DNA of 64,000 bases from the NCBI GenBank assembly GCA_003243965.1, contig QHBO01000036.1, positions 1 to 64,000 on the forward strand, in the 5' to 3' direction. The position numbers and the translations under genes were made by a program. This DNA is from Chloroflexota bacterium. GTDB lineage: Bacteria > Chloroflexota > Limnocylindria > QHBO01. The number at the start of each line of letters is the position of its first letter. Position 1 is the stretch's first letter. The notes under the pieces are model-generated. The model did not search any database. It saw only the letters and a list, made by a program, of their open reading frames with translations, and was not told the DNA's origin. This document shows positions 1-44,524 of the stretch, one piece after another.

Positions 1-308
1 AGTTCCAGGGCAGCAGCCACGATCGCCTCGCGGTCCTGCCGGGCCCACAAGGGGTCCAGCTGAGCGATGTGGGCCAACCGGTCCGGGCTGCCCCAGGCGC
101 CGAACGCGTAGGCGGATCGCACCGCGACGGAGCGATGCCGGACGTGCATGCCGCGGGCGCAGGGGCGACAGCGGCGGTAGTGTGAGTGGGCGTCGCAGCC
201 GCAGTCGCAGCGGCAGCGCGGCGCCAGGGACGGGCATTCTGGGCAGGCCGCCGACATGCGGCGCTCCCTCCGCCTGCGGTGTGGGGCACGCACCCCGCGG
301 CGCAGCAT
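1..308 (-). CDS. Cys-rich small protein (partial, runs off left edge): MLRRGVRAPHRRRRERRMSAACPECPSLAPRCRCDCGCDAHSHYRRCRPCARGMHVRHRSVAVRSAYAFGAWGSPDRLAHIAQLDPLWARQDREAIVAAALE...
   Basis: Own reverse-strand translation; open to window edge so absent from ORF track. ATG at 308 overlaps the stop of the upstream ORF (TGATG); alternative ATG at 257. Eight Cys in 29 residues. Confidence 0.55.
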   Translation of the reverse strand, partial: MLRRGVRAPHRRRRERRMSAACPECPSLAPRCRCDCGCDAHSHYRRCRPCARGMHVRHRSVAVRSAYAFGAWGSPDRLAHIAQLDPLWARQDREAIVAAALE

Positions 309-568
309 CATCGCGGCCACCCGGGCAACGTCTGCAGGGCGAGGTCGACGACCTCATCAGGATCCTGCCCGGCCAGGATGCAGACCTCTCCGAGCTCGGC
401 GACCAGACGATGCTCGAGGCACGCGCCGTGGTGCGCCAGGCGGACCTGCTCGTCGATCTGGGCCCTGGTCATCCGCCGAGAGAGGCCACCCGGCGTGTAG
501 GCGTCCGCGCCCAAGCTCGGGCGCGGACCCCCCGATCGGAGCTTGGGAACCGACGGGAGCTCGCTCAT
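308..568 (-). CDS. Hypothetical small protein (MSELPSVPKLRSGGPRPSLGADAYTPGGLSRRMTRAQIDEQVRLAHHGACLEHRLVAELGEVCILAGQDPDEVVDLALQTLPGWPR)
   Basis: Internal ATG of track ORF 308..727; ATGA overlap with the upstream ORF stop at 565-567. Confidence 0.55.
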   Translation of the reverse strand: MSELPSVPKLRSGGPRPSLGADAYTPGGLSRRMTRAQIDEQVRLAHHGACLEHRLVAELGEVCILAGQDPDEVVDLALQTLPGWPR

Positions 569-792
569 CGCGGCGTCCCGGCCGGCGGCCAGTCGCCAAA
601 GGCGTAGGCGGCGCGCACGCTCACCGACACGAGCTCGCTCATCGACCGGAGCTCGTGTGGGCAGGCTCGAGCGCCACGGCCATCGACGGCACGGTGCGCC
701 CAATAGGAGCGCCCACACCGCCGGCACCAGGTCCGCCAGCCGTCAGCCCTGGAGAAAACCTCTTCTAGAGGGCGCTCACGCGGGGCGGCCAC
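565..792 (-). CDS. Small zinc-ribbon-like protein (WCRRCGRSYW...CPHEL)
   Basis: Track ORF 565..807; GTG at 792 has SD GGAGGTG (803-797) just upstream. CxxC plus CPH motif. Confidence 0.55.
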   Translation of the reverse strand: MAAPRERPLEEVFSRADGWRTWCRRCGRSYWAHRAVDGRGARACPHELRSMSELVSVSVRAAYAFGDWPPAGTPR

Positions 793-961
793 GGCGCACC
801 TCCGCACATAGACCTAGCTGCGCGCAGCGCAACATAAGATCTATTTGCGGCAGTGCGCGGGACGGGCCCAGGACCGCTCTGAGGGGCGGAGCCGGTTCCT
901 CTGCCGCGATGGCCGGCCGCCCACGGCGCGGCGGCGGCAGAATGTGCGTGTGTGAAGGCGG

Positions 962-2257
962 TCAGCGGCGCGTGGGGCGCCGCCGGGTGCCGCCCGCGGC
1001 GGTCACCTCGGCGGCGATCGCCGTCGGGAGATGGCCGGAGACGCGGATGCCACCCGCGAGGTAGCGCTCGGTCACGTCACCGGCCGCCTTCGCTCGGGCG
1101 ACGAGCTCGCCGCGGTGGTAGGGCACCACGGCGTTGACCGCGACCATCTGGTGGCGGAGCATGGCGGCGATCTGTTCCCGCAGCGCGTCGAGACCCTGTC
1201 CGTGGACGGCGCTGACGAACGCGGCGCGGTCGGAGCCAGGGCTCGGGCTGCCGGCGCGCGCATCGCCGAGCCGGTCGATCTTGTTGAAGACCGTGATCCG
1301 CGGCGTGTCGGCTGCGTCGAGCTGCTCGAGCACCTGCTGCACGGCCGCCTGCTGGCCGATGAAGTCGGGATCGGCGGCGTCGACCACCTCGAGCAGCAGG
1401 TCGGCGCGTGCCACCTCCTCGAGCGTGGCTCTGAACGCATCGACGAGGTCGTGGGGCAGTTTGTTGATGAACCCGACGGTATCGGTCATCACCACCCGTT
1501 GGCCGGTCGGCAGCGTCACCTGCCGGGAGGTCGGGTCCAGCGTGGCGAACAGCATGTTCGCGGCGTACACGTCCGTACTTGCAAGGGCGTTGAGCAGGGT
1601 GCTCTTTCCGGCATTCGTGTAGCCGACCAGCGCCACGGTGGACACCTCGCTGCGGTCCCGTTGACGGGCGGCGGTGGCGCGCTGCCGCTTGACGTCCTCG
1701 AGCTCGCCGCGCAGCTTGCGGATCTTGTCGGCGATCAGTCGACGGTCCGTCTCGAGCTGGCTCTCGCCCGGTCCCCGCGTGCCGATGCCGCCGCCGGTGC
1801 GCGACAGGTGGGTCCACATCCGGGTCAGCCGCGGCAGGTGGTATGCGAGCTGTGCCAGCTCGACCTGGAGGCGTCCCTCGCGGGTCCGCGCGTGCTTGGC
1901 GAAGATGTCGATGATCAGCGCGGACCGGTCCAGCACTTTGCAGTCGACGAGCTTCTCGAGGTTCCGCTGCTGCGCAGGGGTGAGCTCGTCGTCGACGATG
2001 AGCAGGTTGAAGTCGGTGGCCGCCCTCTCGTCGACGAGCTCGGCGGCGCGCCCCTTCCCGAGGTACCAGGCGGCGTCGGGAGCGCGCCGACGCTGGAAGG
2101 CGCTGCCAACCACGCTGGCTCCCGCGGTCCGGGCCAGGGCCTCCAGCTCGGCCAGGCTGCGGCCGATCGGCCAGCGGCCGTCTCCAGGGTTTTCGATCCC
2201 GACCAGATAGGCGCGCTCCACGGGCGCGGTGAGGTCGAGCAGGCGTCCATCGGTCAT
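962..2257 (-). CDS. hflX: GTPase HflX
   Basis: HflX N-domain, GTRGPGESQLETDRR, G1 GYTNAGKST, DTVGF, NKID. Confidence 0.95.
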   Translation of the reverse strand: MTDGRLLDLTAPVERAYLVGIENPGDGRWPIGRSLAELEALARTAGASVVGSAFQRRRAPDAAWYLGKGRAAELVDERAATDFNLLIVDDELTPAQQRNLEKLVDCKVLDRSALIIDIFAKHARTREGRLQVELAQLAYHLPRLTRMWTHLSRTGGGIGTRGPGESQLETDRRLIADKIRKLRGELEDVKRQRATAARQRDRSEVSTVALVGYTNAGKSTLLNALASTDVYAANMLFATLDPTSRQVTLPTGQRVVMTDTVGFINKLPHDLVDAFRATLEEVARADLLLEVVDAADPDFIGQQAAVQQVLEQLDAADTPRITVFNKIDRLGDARAGSPSPGSDRAAFVSAVHGQGLDALREQIAAMLRHQMVAVNAVVPYHRGELVARAKAAGDVTERYLAGGIRVSGHLPTAIAAEVTAAGGTRRRPTRR

Positions 2258-3243
2258 CTGCGGGCCATGGTAGTCGATGCCGGACGGGGCACCGCTGCGA
2301 TCGCCTGGACGGCCGCCGTCGCGGCATCGACCAGCACGCGATCCGTCATCGAACGATCCGCGGCGTCCGGCGCGGCGAGCCAGACGACATCGGGATCACG
2401 GCGAAACCAGCTCAGCTGGCGCTTGGCGTACTGGCGCGTGCGGCGGGCGGCGACCTCGAGCGCCTCGTCCAGCGTCCACTCCCCTGCCAGATAGCGCGCC
2501 GTCTCCGCGTAGCCGTGGCCACTCATCGCCGGGAGCTCGGGTCGATAGCCCGCGGCGAGCAGCGAGCGCACCTCATCGACCAGGCCGTGGCTGAACAGCC
2601 AAGCGGCCCGTTCGTCGATGCGTCGATAGAGCGTCTCGCGCGGACGGTCGATGGCGAGTTGGAGGACAGGCCCGCCATAGGCAGTTGCCGTCGGCAACGG
2701 ATCGCCCGCCATGCGGCGCTCGAGCGCGGCCAACACGCGTCGCGGGTTCCGCACATCGATGCCGTCGCCAGCCCGCGGGTCGTAGGCCCGCAATCGGGCA
2801 GCCATCGCGTCCAGCCCGTGCCGCTCGAAGTCCCGCTGGAGCGCAATCCGCAGCCCCGGCGACCGCGGCCGTTCGGTCAATGCGTAACCGCCGAGCAGCG
2901 CAGTGATGTACAGCCCGGTGCCCCCCACCAGGATCGGCAGCCGGCCTCGCTCCCCCACCTCGCGGAGCGCCTTGCGAGCTGCACGCAGCCAGTCGGCGAC
3001 GGTGAGCCGCTGATCGGGCGCTGCGAGGTCCAGGAGGTGGTGCGGCGCTCTTGCCAGGTCCGCCGGTCCCGGCTTGGCGGTGCCGATCGTCATCCCGCGG
3101 TACACCTGGCGCGAGTCGGCCACCAGGATCTCGCCGTTGAGGCGCTCGGCCAGCGCCAGCGCCAGCTCGCTCTTGCCCGAGGCTGTGGGGCCCACGATGG
3201 CGAGCAGCGCCGGCTCGGTCGAGCCGGCGAGCGACGTGCCCAT
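2254..3243 (-). CDS. miaA: tRNA dimethylallyltransferase MiaA
   Basis: IVGPTASGKSELALALAERLNGEI..DSRQVYRGMTIGTAKP; start set at MGTSLAG to avoid long overlap with ymdB. Confidence 0.95.
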   Translation of the reverse strand: MGTSLAGSTEPALLAIVGPTASGKSELALALAERLNGEILVADSRQVYRGMTIGTAKPGPADLARAPHHLLDLAAPDQRLTVADWLRAARKALREVGERGRLPILVGGTGLYITALLGGYALTERPRSPGLRIALQRDFERHGLDAMAARLRAYDPRAGDGIDVRNPRRVLAALERRMAGDPLPTATAYGGPVLQLAIDRPRETLYRRIDERAAWLFSHGLVDEVRSLLAAGYRPELPAMSGHGYAETARYLAGEWTLDEALEVAARRTRQYAKRQLSWFRRDPDVVWLAAPDAADRSMTDRVLVDAATAAVQAIAAVPRPASTTMARR

Positions 3244-41785: not shown

Positions 41786-44524
41786 ATGGCCCGACGTTAC
41801 CCGCCGCCGCGTGACGGCTTCACCCGGCGTGCCGGGCCTGCCGCCGCGGCCCGTCCACTCGACCGCTCTGCGGTGCCGCCGGCGCTGGTGCTGGGCATCT
41901 TCGGTCTCCTCGCGGCGGGTCTGTTCATGCTCGTGGTGGGTGCCTACCTGACCTACGCTCGCGGCCTACCGTCGGTCTCCGACCTCGAGACGTTCCGCCT
42001 CGACGAGGGATCGACCGTCATGTCAGCGGATGGTGTGCAGCTCGCCTCCTTCGCTGCGGAGCAGCGGCGAGTGGTGCCGTACGCCCAGATTCCGCGGGTC
42101 ATGATCGACGCGCAGGTTGCCGCAGAGGACCAGAGCTTCTGGACCAATCCGTGCATCGACATGCGCGGCATCGTCCGCGCCTTCGTCCAGAACCTGAGCG
42201 CCGGCGAGACCGTATCGGGCGCATCCACCATCTGCCAGCAGCTCGTCCGGATCCGCCTCTTCGACGCCTCGCTGATGGCCGACCGCTCGCGACGGCTGGA
42301 GCGCAAGATCAAGGAGGCGCTGTTGGCGCTGCGCGTCGGCGAACGGTACGTCGGGAAGGCGGGCAAGGAGAAGCTGCTGGAGATGTACCTCAACCAGGTC
42401 TTCTACGGGCACAACTCCTACGGTGTGTGGGCCGCCGCCCACTCGTACTTCGGCAAGGACATCACCCGCACCGATTCCGCCAACCGACTGACCATCAGTG
42501 AGGCGGCACTGCTGGCCGGCCTGGTGCGCTCACCCTCCTCGCTCGACCCGACCAAGGTCGCGGTCCAGCGCAAGGATGCCAAGGGGCGCCCGATCCTCGT
42601 CGTCCCGTTCAACAGCGACGTGGTCCGCGTCCGTGGATTCGTGCTGAACAACATGCTCGACAGCGGCTACATCACTCCGGCCCAGCTGGCAGCCGCGAGG
42701 GCCGAGCAGGTGGTGCTGCACCCCGCCGGCACCGATCGGTTCAAGGCGCCGCATTTCGTCTACGCCGTGCGGCGAGCCGCCGGCCAGCTGCTCGGCGGTG
42801 AGGAGGTGCTTGACCGCGGTGGCCTGAAGATCCTGACCACGCTCGACTACAAGGGATACCAGCTGAGCGCCGAGAAATGGGCCGCCATCGGGTATGACCT
42901 CGACCGCATGACCGATGCGCAGCTCACGGTCAAGTACGGTCCCGATGCCCTGCGCTGGATCAAGACGCTGCAGGGACGGAACATCAACAACGACGCCCTC
43001 GTGTCGCTCAACTACCGGACCGGAGCGGTCATCGCCTACGTAGGGAGCGCCAACTACTACGGGCAGAGCACGCCCGCCCACCAGCCGGCCTATGACGTGG
43101 TCGGACAGGCATTCCGTCAGTCGGGATCCGCATTCAAGCCGGTCACCTACGCCACCGGGTTCGAGCGCGGCACCATCACGCCGGCGACCATCTTCATGGA
43201 CGTCATCGGCGAGATCGTGAACGGCTACAGCGTCCCCGATGCCGAGCCGATCGAGCGTGGTCCGGTCCGCGTCCGCGATGCGCTGAAGTACTCGCTCAAT
43301 ATCCCGGTCGCCAAGGCCCAGCAGCTGATCGGCACGGAGAACGTGGTCGCCCAGGCGAAGCGGTTTGGGTTGCAGTTCGATCCCTCACAGAACCCCAACG
43401 TGCCGTCACTGACGCTCGGGACGATCGGCGTCCACCAGCTCGACCTGGCGGGCGCGTACGGGGCGCTGGCCAACGGGGGAGTCCTGGCGCGCCCGTACAT
43501 GATCGAGAAGATCATCGACCGCAACGGCAAGGTCGTCTACGACCATGCCGTTGACGCGGCCAAGCCGGCGCGCGTCCTCTCGCCGCAGTCCGCGTACCTC
43601 GTCACCGACATCCTGGCCGATAACACCGATCCGGCCGCAAACCCGCTGTGGGGACCGCGCTTCCAGCTCACCACCGACACCGGTCGGCGCCCCGCGACGC
43701 TCAAGACCGGCACCACCAACGACTTCCGCGACCTCCAGGCGTTCGGATACGTCGCCCCGGACAAGGATGCGGGCAAGGCGCAGGGCGCGATCGTGACCGG
43801 CGTGTGGGTCGGGAACAGCGACTTCTCGGCCATCAAGTCGGTCTTCGCGGCCGACGGGCCGACCTTCATCTGGCACGACTACATGGCCGACGTGCTGGCC
43901 AAGAACAGGGTCCCGGTGCGCGACTTCCTCCGTCCCGACGGGATCACCGAGCTGAAGGTCGATGCGCTGAGCGGGATGCTCCCCGGCGACCAGACCACCA
44001 AGGTCGTCAACGAGGTGTTCAACACGACCGAGGTGCCGCGCGACAAGGACACGCTCCACCGCGAGCTCGCGATCGAGGCCAAGACCGGCAAGATATGGCA
44101 ATCCGGCTGCGGTGACTTCGTGCCGTCCGGTGCCAGCGCGGCTCCCAGCGCGGCTCCCAGCGCGAGCCCGGGACCCAGTCCGAGCGGCAGCCCCGCTGCG
44201 CCAACCGCGCAGATGAAGGTCTACCTCGACCTCTCCAAGCTCGAGGCCGATCACCCCACGTGGCTCAGGGCCAACCTGGCGTGGATCCGCAAATGGCGCG
44301 GGAACGAGGCGAACCTGGAACGTTTCCCAATCGTCAATCTCGATGCGCCGCTGGCGCCGACCGAGACCTGCACGCCGGGGGCGATCCCGACCTCGACGCC
44401 CACGCCGTCGCCGAGCCCGACGCCGTCACCGAGCCCAACCCCGTCACCGACCCCGTCGCCCACGCCGTCACCGACCCCCGCGCCGACCGGCTCGGCGACA
44501 CCGACGCCAGCCCCGACGCCCTAG
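41786..44524 (+). CDS. Class A penicillin-binding protein (transglycosylase/transpeptidase)
   Basis: AAEDQSFWTNPCIDMRGIVRA, TYLNQVFYGHNSYG-like, RQSGSAFKPVTY, KTGTTNDFRD; Ser/Thr/Pro-rich tail. Confidence 0.95.
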   Translation: MARRYPPPRDGFTRRAGPAAAARPLDRSAVPPALVLGIFGLLAAGLFMLVVGAYLTYARGLPSVSDLETFRLDEGSTVMSADGVQLASFAAEQRRVVPYAQIPRVMIDAQVAAEDQSFWTNPCIDMRGIVRAFVQNLSAGETVSGASTICQQLVRIRLFDASLMADRSRRLERKIKEALLALRVGERYVGKAGKEKLLEMYLNQVFYGHNSYGVWAAAHSYFGKDITRTDSANRLTISEAALLAGLVRSPSSLDPTKVAVQRKDAKGRPILVVPFNSDVVRVRGFVLNNMLDSGYITPAQLAAARAEQVVLHPAGTDRFKAPHFVYAVRRAAGQLLGGEEVLDRGGLKILTTLDYKGYQLSAEKWAAIGYDLDRMTDAQLTVKYGPDALRWIKTLQGRNINNDALVSLNYRTGAVIAYVGSANYYGQSTPAHQPAYDVVGQAFRQSGSAFKPVTYATGFERGTITPATIFMDVIGEIVNGYSVPDAEPIERGPVRVRDALKYSLNIPVAKAQQLIGTENVVAQAKRFGLQFDPSQNPNVPSLTLGTIGVHQLDLAGAYGALANGGVLARPYMIEKIIDRNGKVVYDHAVDAAKPARVLSPQSAYLVTDILADNTDPAANPLWGPRFQLTTDTGRRPATLKTGTTNDFRDLQAFGYVAPDKDAGKAQGAIVTGVWVGNSDFSAIKSVFAADGPTFIWHDYMADVLAKNRVPVRDFLRPDGITELKVDALSGMLPGDQTTKVVNEVFNTTEVPRDKDTLHRELAIEAKTGKIWQSGCGDFVPSGASAAPSAAPSASPGPSPSGSPAAPTAQMKVYLDLSKLEADHPTWLRANLAWIRKWRGNEANLERFPIVNLDAPLAPTETCTPGAIPTSTPTPSPSPTPSPSPTPSPTPSPTPSPTPAPTGSATPTPAPTP
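44391..44518 (+). repeat. Degenerate low-complexity repeat encoding PTPSPSP-type tail of the PBP
   Basis: Iterated ccgacgccgtcaccgagccc-like units, protein PTSTPTPSPSPTPSPSPTPSPTPSPTPSPTPAPT. Confidence 0.85.

Follow-up and report, generated by a model that had tools for sequence, protein, structure and literature searches.

Small cysteine-rich proteins sharing a short peptide at the edge of a Chloroflexota contig, with counterparts in phage contigs

The early regions of phage genomes hold many tiny proteins of unknown role, and the closest counterpart of the gene cluster considered here comes from a phage of this kind. It is a 33.6-kb contig of a tailed temperate phage (C278), recovered from a genome of the same family, in which matches to PHROGs mark terminase, portal, major head, tape measure, exonuclease, SSB and serine integrase genes. 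One of its small genes, the homologue of the middle gene of our cluster (ORF2), is joined by an ATGA overlap to the Cys-containing ORF on its upstream side, and the ORF after it has CRRC...CDPC. The SSB of the same phage (L015:2252-2731) is 62% identical over ~110 residues to the SSB encoded at G000:C1:5850-6179, which belongs to the rpsF-ssb-rpsR locus of the bacterial genome analyzed here; the comparison of the two sequences suggests that the phage gene was captured from a related host.

The window, as the whole stretch of DNA under analysis is called, comprises 64,000 nucleotides (G000:C36:1-64000) of a 64,301-bp contig, in a genome of 2.2 Mb in 48 contigs, and its position 1 is a contig end. 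Three ORFs occupy this edge beside two host genes (Table 1). The first-pass annotation described them as three coupled, tiny ORFs on the minus strand. The ORFs themselves and the first coupling stand, with the stop of ORF1 overlapping the start of ORF2 in the ATGA at 565-568, but the coupling of ORF3 through the TGATG found at 306-310 is doubtful. Although starts at 308 and 311 are available to ORF3, ATG257 with its upstream GGAGG is the more likely start on sequence grounds, because the 17 N-terminal residues added by the TGATG start are Arg-rich filler, and thus the coupling suggested by the second overlap may be spurious. Moreover, the contig end at position 1 truncates ORF3, so that the complete gene could be larger than the term tiny implies. 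For ORF1 an alternative start at GTG807 would give a protein of 80 aa.

Table 1. Positions of the small ORFs, the shared peptide and the neighboring features at the contig edge.
Feature	Position	Strand	Start
ORF1, 75 aa, with CRRC...CPH and the C-terminal motif SVSVRAAYAFGDWPPAGTPR	565..792	-	GTG792 with GGAGG
ORF2, 86 aa, predicted helical	308..568	-	ATG568 within the ATGA overlap with ORF1
ORF3, cut by the contig end; Cys-rich N-terminal part, then the motif	1..257	-	ATG257 behind GGAGG (more likely start)
Shared peptide, copy 1 (ORF1): SVSVRAAYAFGDWPP	583..627	-	
Shared peptide, copy 2 (ORF3): SVAVRSAYAFGAW	93..131	-	
Strong predicted hairpin: GCTGCGCGCAGC core, flanking AUAGAUCU/AGGUCUAU stem	808..844	-	
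hflX, host gene flanking the cluster	962..2257	-	
miaA, host gene next after hflX	2254-3243	-	

Judged by GC content per codon position, the coding signal is good for ORF2 (.76/.52/.85) and ORF3 (.71/.64/.88), while within ORF1 it is weak in the N-terminal part (GC3.75) and good in the C-terminal part (.88). A 22-nt direct repeat (91%) at window positions 549-570 and 623-644 spans the start of ORF2 (MSELPSV) and an in-frame MSELVSV directly before the ORF1 motif. The hairpin sits between hflX and the ribosome-binding site of ORF1 and is present in both the minimum-energy and the centroid structures, within a 154-nt stretch that is unremarkable as a whole (z -0.89); it may represent an operator, an attenuator or the end of the hflX transcript.

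The cysteine features that had been pointed out in the first and third proteins are all present, namely CRRC...CPH in ORF1 and, in ORF3, 8 Cys in 29 residues plus HSH; the full set in ORF3 is CPEC, CRCDCGC, HSH and CRPC. From the spacing of these Cys and His residues both proteins are probably zinc-binding, and ORF1 is a probable small zinc ribbon. No significant family match was found for the ORFs in the profile libraries searched (including Pfam and NCBIfam), in keeping with the initial impression that they belong to no annotated family; PADLOC-DB, which covers anti-phage defence, gave no match at E up to 1, and neither PDB relatives nor an Rfam match were found. A match of ORF1 to the Lar-like restriction alleviation proteins (phrog_5558; E 0.038 over 28 residues in the CRRC region) is not significant and lacks support from Pfam and NCBIfam, and this assignment was rejected. 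AlphaFold, proposed at the outset as a check for zinc sites, placed a low-confidence beta hairpin at CRRC and predicted the zinc-ribbon part best, but the ORF1 model as a whole is poor (mean pLDDT 45), and the motif, at below 50, fits a flexible peptide, for which such a model is weak evidence. The model of ORF2 is helical and of moderate quality (mean pLDDT 70).

The peptide SV(S/A)VR(A/S)AYAFG(D/A)W is found in both ORF1 and ORF3. The two copies, SVSVRAAYAFGDW and SVAVRSAYAFGAW, are identical at 10 of 13 positions, as reported in the first pass, and among 12 codons compared between them five are identical, four synonymous and three changed. Two instances of the core pattern AYxFGxW are present in the window and none in 100 shuffles, and no further occurrence was found elsewhere in the 2.2-Mb genome. 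Apart from the motif, ORF1 and ORF3 show hardly any resemblance.

A search of IMG/VR with ORF1 led to two contigs, 3300042191_000028 (V177, the contig of loci L019 and L020) and 3300036851_000093 (V178, the contig of L018 and L021), each of which carries terminase genes. The same two contigs provided the only matches, exactly two in 2.9 million viral contigs, to a codon-degenerate pattern for VRxAYxFGDW, and both matches agree with the peptide also at the unspecified and flanking positions. In V177, a 213-aa protein (L019) has ISVRAAYAFGDWPPKR as its C-terminal end, and in V178, SVSVRAAYAFGDWPPSG lies inside a 128-aa protein (L018) with its own GGAGG site. The motif is therefore not fixed in its placement, being a C-terminal tail in ORF1 and the L019 protein and internal in ORF3 and the L018 protein, and the proteins that bear it hardly align outside the peptide. 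Over the 12-codon core, ORF1 and V178 differ by synonymous changes only (5 codons identical, 7 synonymous, 0 changed), and V177 and V178 have 3 identical codons, 8 synonymous ones and a single amino-acid change. As almost all codons of the motif are either identical or synonymous in these comparisons, selection acts on the peptide, and the four copies compared support the conservation at the protein level that the first-pass annotation had suggested. Its companion suggestion, a duplication of whole proteins, fares less well: with so little likeness between ORF1 and ORF3 outside the motif, and with the motif in unrelated proteins elsewhere, a shared short module fits the sequences at least as well.

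Beyond the two phage contigs, the motif search that had been recommended yielded no other credible copy. Looser motif scans of IMG/VR and a scan of GTDB contigs returned only matches in unrelated or chance contexts, for example head-morphogenesis-like proteins and very short frames. The tested form of the motif was absent from the 399 other genomes of a 400-genome sample of the phylum, tblastn found no match to the peptide in INPHARED and PLSDB or to the three ORFs in INPHARED, and the matches to ORF1 and ORF3 in 150 relatives were borderline and chance-like. No paper containing AYAFGDW was found in the literature searched. That only four copies of the motif are known counts against the explanation preferred below.

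The motif-bearing phage contigs have two further features. In V178 (IMGVR_UViG_3300036851_000093, near 43438, minus strand; L041 near 3438), a gene for a CxxC protein with HSAYRFGH neighbors the motif gene and is divergent from it; HSAYRFGH is possibly a degenerate form of the motif. In addition, both contigs (L037:13161-13371 and L041:5234-5452) have another short module in common, LTLAEAQAHCNDPETSSSTA...ARTRR.G.W.DGY, which is likewise C-terminal and is also matched in Tunturiibacter phage Tunturi_3 (PP885686.1); the proteins that bear it are again otherwise unlike.

Among the 151 genomes searched, ORF2 has one clear relative (G012:C278:1562-1783, E 4.5e-10), with 45-46% identity and an alignment score reached by 0 of 1000 shuffles; a further match, in G115, is borderline (9.3e-4). 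An alignment search of IMG/VR gave no match to ORF2, no homologue was found in the two motif-bearing contigs, and a search with the ORF2 homologue gave matches at chance level only. The guess of a phage or mobile-element module, made originally from the tight packing of the ORFs, gains from both lines: the cluster contains genes homologous to tailed-phage genes, with the ORF2 relative in a temperate phage contig and the motif in two terminase-bearing viral contigs, and its phage origin is supported by these sequence relationships.

Of the element itself no integrase, att site or structural gene is visible, as the contig breaks off within the cluster. Nothing recognisable as an att site was found near 800-960, and the 11-14-base words in common with phage contigs resemble chance matches between GC-rich sequences and were set aside. 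When the marker proteins of C278 were searched in the rest of the genome, only SSB genes matched, and the stronger of these, on contig C1, is the host rpsF-ssb-rpsR gene. Among the same-family relatives examined, the region downstream of hflX varies, and the three ORFs are absent from beside hflX. Elsewhere in the genome, a 12-kb contig (C15) that ends in the apparent 3' end of a 16S rRNA gene encodes a large serine recombinase (L087, 9183-10739, plus strand), which probably belongs to another integrated element; no evidence was found to link it to contig C36.

The reading that we prefer, at roughly even odds (about 0.5), places the three ORFs at the margin of a tailed phage integrated next to the host gene hflX, or of a phage-derived island there, which the end of the contig truncates, and has its Cys proteins share a docking peptide. 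We infer integration and early expression, such that the ORFs would be early or accessory genes clustered in leftward orientation. ORF1 and ORF3 would each combine a probable zinc-binding head with the short peptide S(V/I)(S/A)VR(A/S)AYAFG(D/A)W(PP), by which different phage proteins could dock on one common partner, and ORF2 would be a small helical companion protein, translationally coupled to ORF1. The broader proposal that S(V/I)SVRAAYAFGDWPP is an undescribed transferable docking peptide, through which several unrelated phage early proteins, two of them in one element, reach one host target, is put forward tentatively and falls short of being probable. When unrelated proteins from different phages retain a peptide letter for letter, this marks an interaction at the level of residues and provides a defined bait for the target, and the peptide described here probably has a specific function. 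Should it be a docking motif, it would reveal a component, of host or phage, exploited by several phages.

This reading has to be weighed against the view that a single small phage zinc-finger protein gave rise to both ORF1 and ORF3 as ordinary paralogues, with the motif as the conserved core of the fold and not a docking peptide. The Cys-rich parts do precede the motif in both proteins, their whole-length local alignment score was beaten by only 8 of 5000 shuffles, and the small CxxC gene adjoining the L018 motif gene carries the possibly degenerate form HSAYRFGH. However, that alignment score comes mostly from the motif, and the viral proteins are built differently, the L019 motif following an acidic linker as a C-terminal tail, with ~70 residues between it and the Cys cluster, and the Cys residues of the L018 protein coming after the motif. 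Docking is favored over a fold core because the placement varies, with two tails and two internal copies, and because the surroundings are dissimilar, and common descent of the two proteins as paralogues is considered rather unlikely.

An effect on translation is less likely still. Pro-Pro slows ribosomes, and both ORF1 and L019 overlap the following gene in an ATGA only a few codons past the end of the motif, such that FGDWPP near the stop might be a nascent-chain pause element controlling the coupled downstream gene; but ORF3 and L018 have the motif at an internal position, a long way from the stop, and ORF3 is without WPP, which leaves this explanation improbable. There is a similarly small chance that the left 0.8 kb is phage DNA misjoined to a host contig during metagenome assembly. 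Its position at a contig end in a 48-contig genome would allow for this, as would the failure to find any other C278-like phage part in the genome, while the host-like GC content (72.7%) and codon-position pattern argue mildly against a chimera. The same host-like composition, together with the weak coding signal in the N-terminal part of ORF1, might instead indicate lineage-specific host genes or no genes at all, but the presence in phage contigs of an ORF2 homologue and of the motif, the latter with codon-level constraint, makes this very improbable.

The cluster is best regarded as a new set of small phage proteins whose peptide is unusually sharply conserved and apparently undescribed. To call it an undescribed system, as the first-pass annotation did, says more than the evidence allows, since neither a partner nor an activity nor a conserved set of genes came to light. 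Compared with C278, the likeness is one of layout only: in the early/accessory region of that phage, as in the window, the ORF2 homologue lies between small Cys-containing ORFs, all on one strand, but its flanking small proteins are without the motif and do not align with ORF1 or ORF3, and homology between them was rejected. The SSB and structural genes of C278 are not seen at the window cluster, which ends at the contig edge. The Lar-like protein family is likewise one of small phage proteins, with the ORF1 motif lying outside the matched region. The motif proteins of IMG/VR contigs 3300042191_000028 and 3300036851_000093, unrelated in the remainder of their sequences, share SVRAAYAFGDWPP letter for letter with the cluster.
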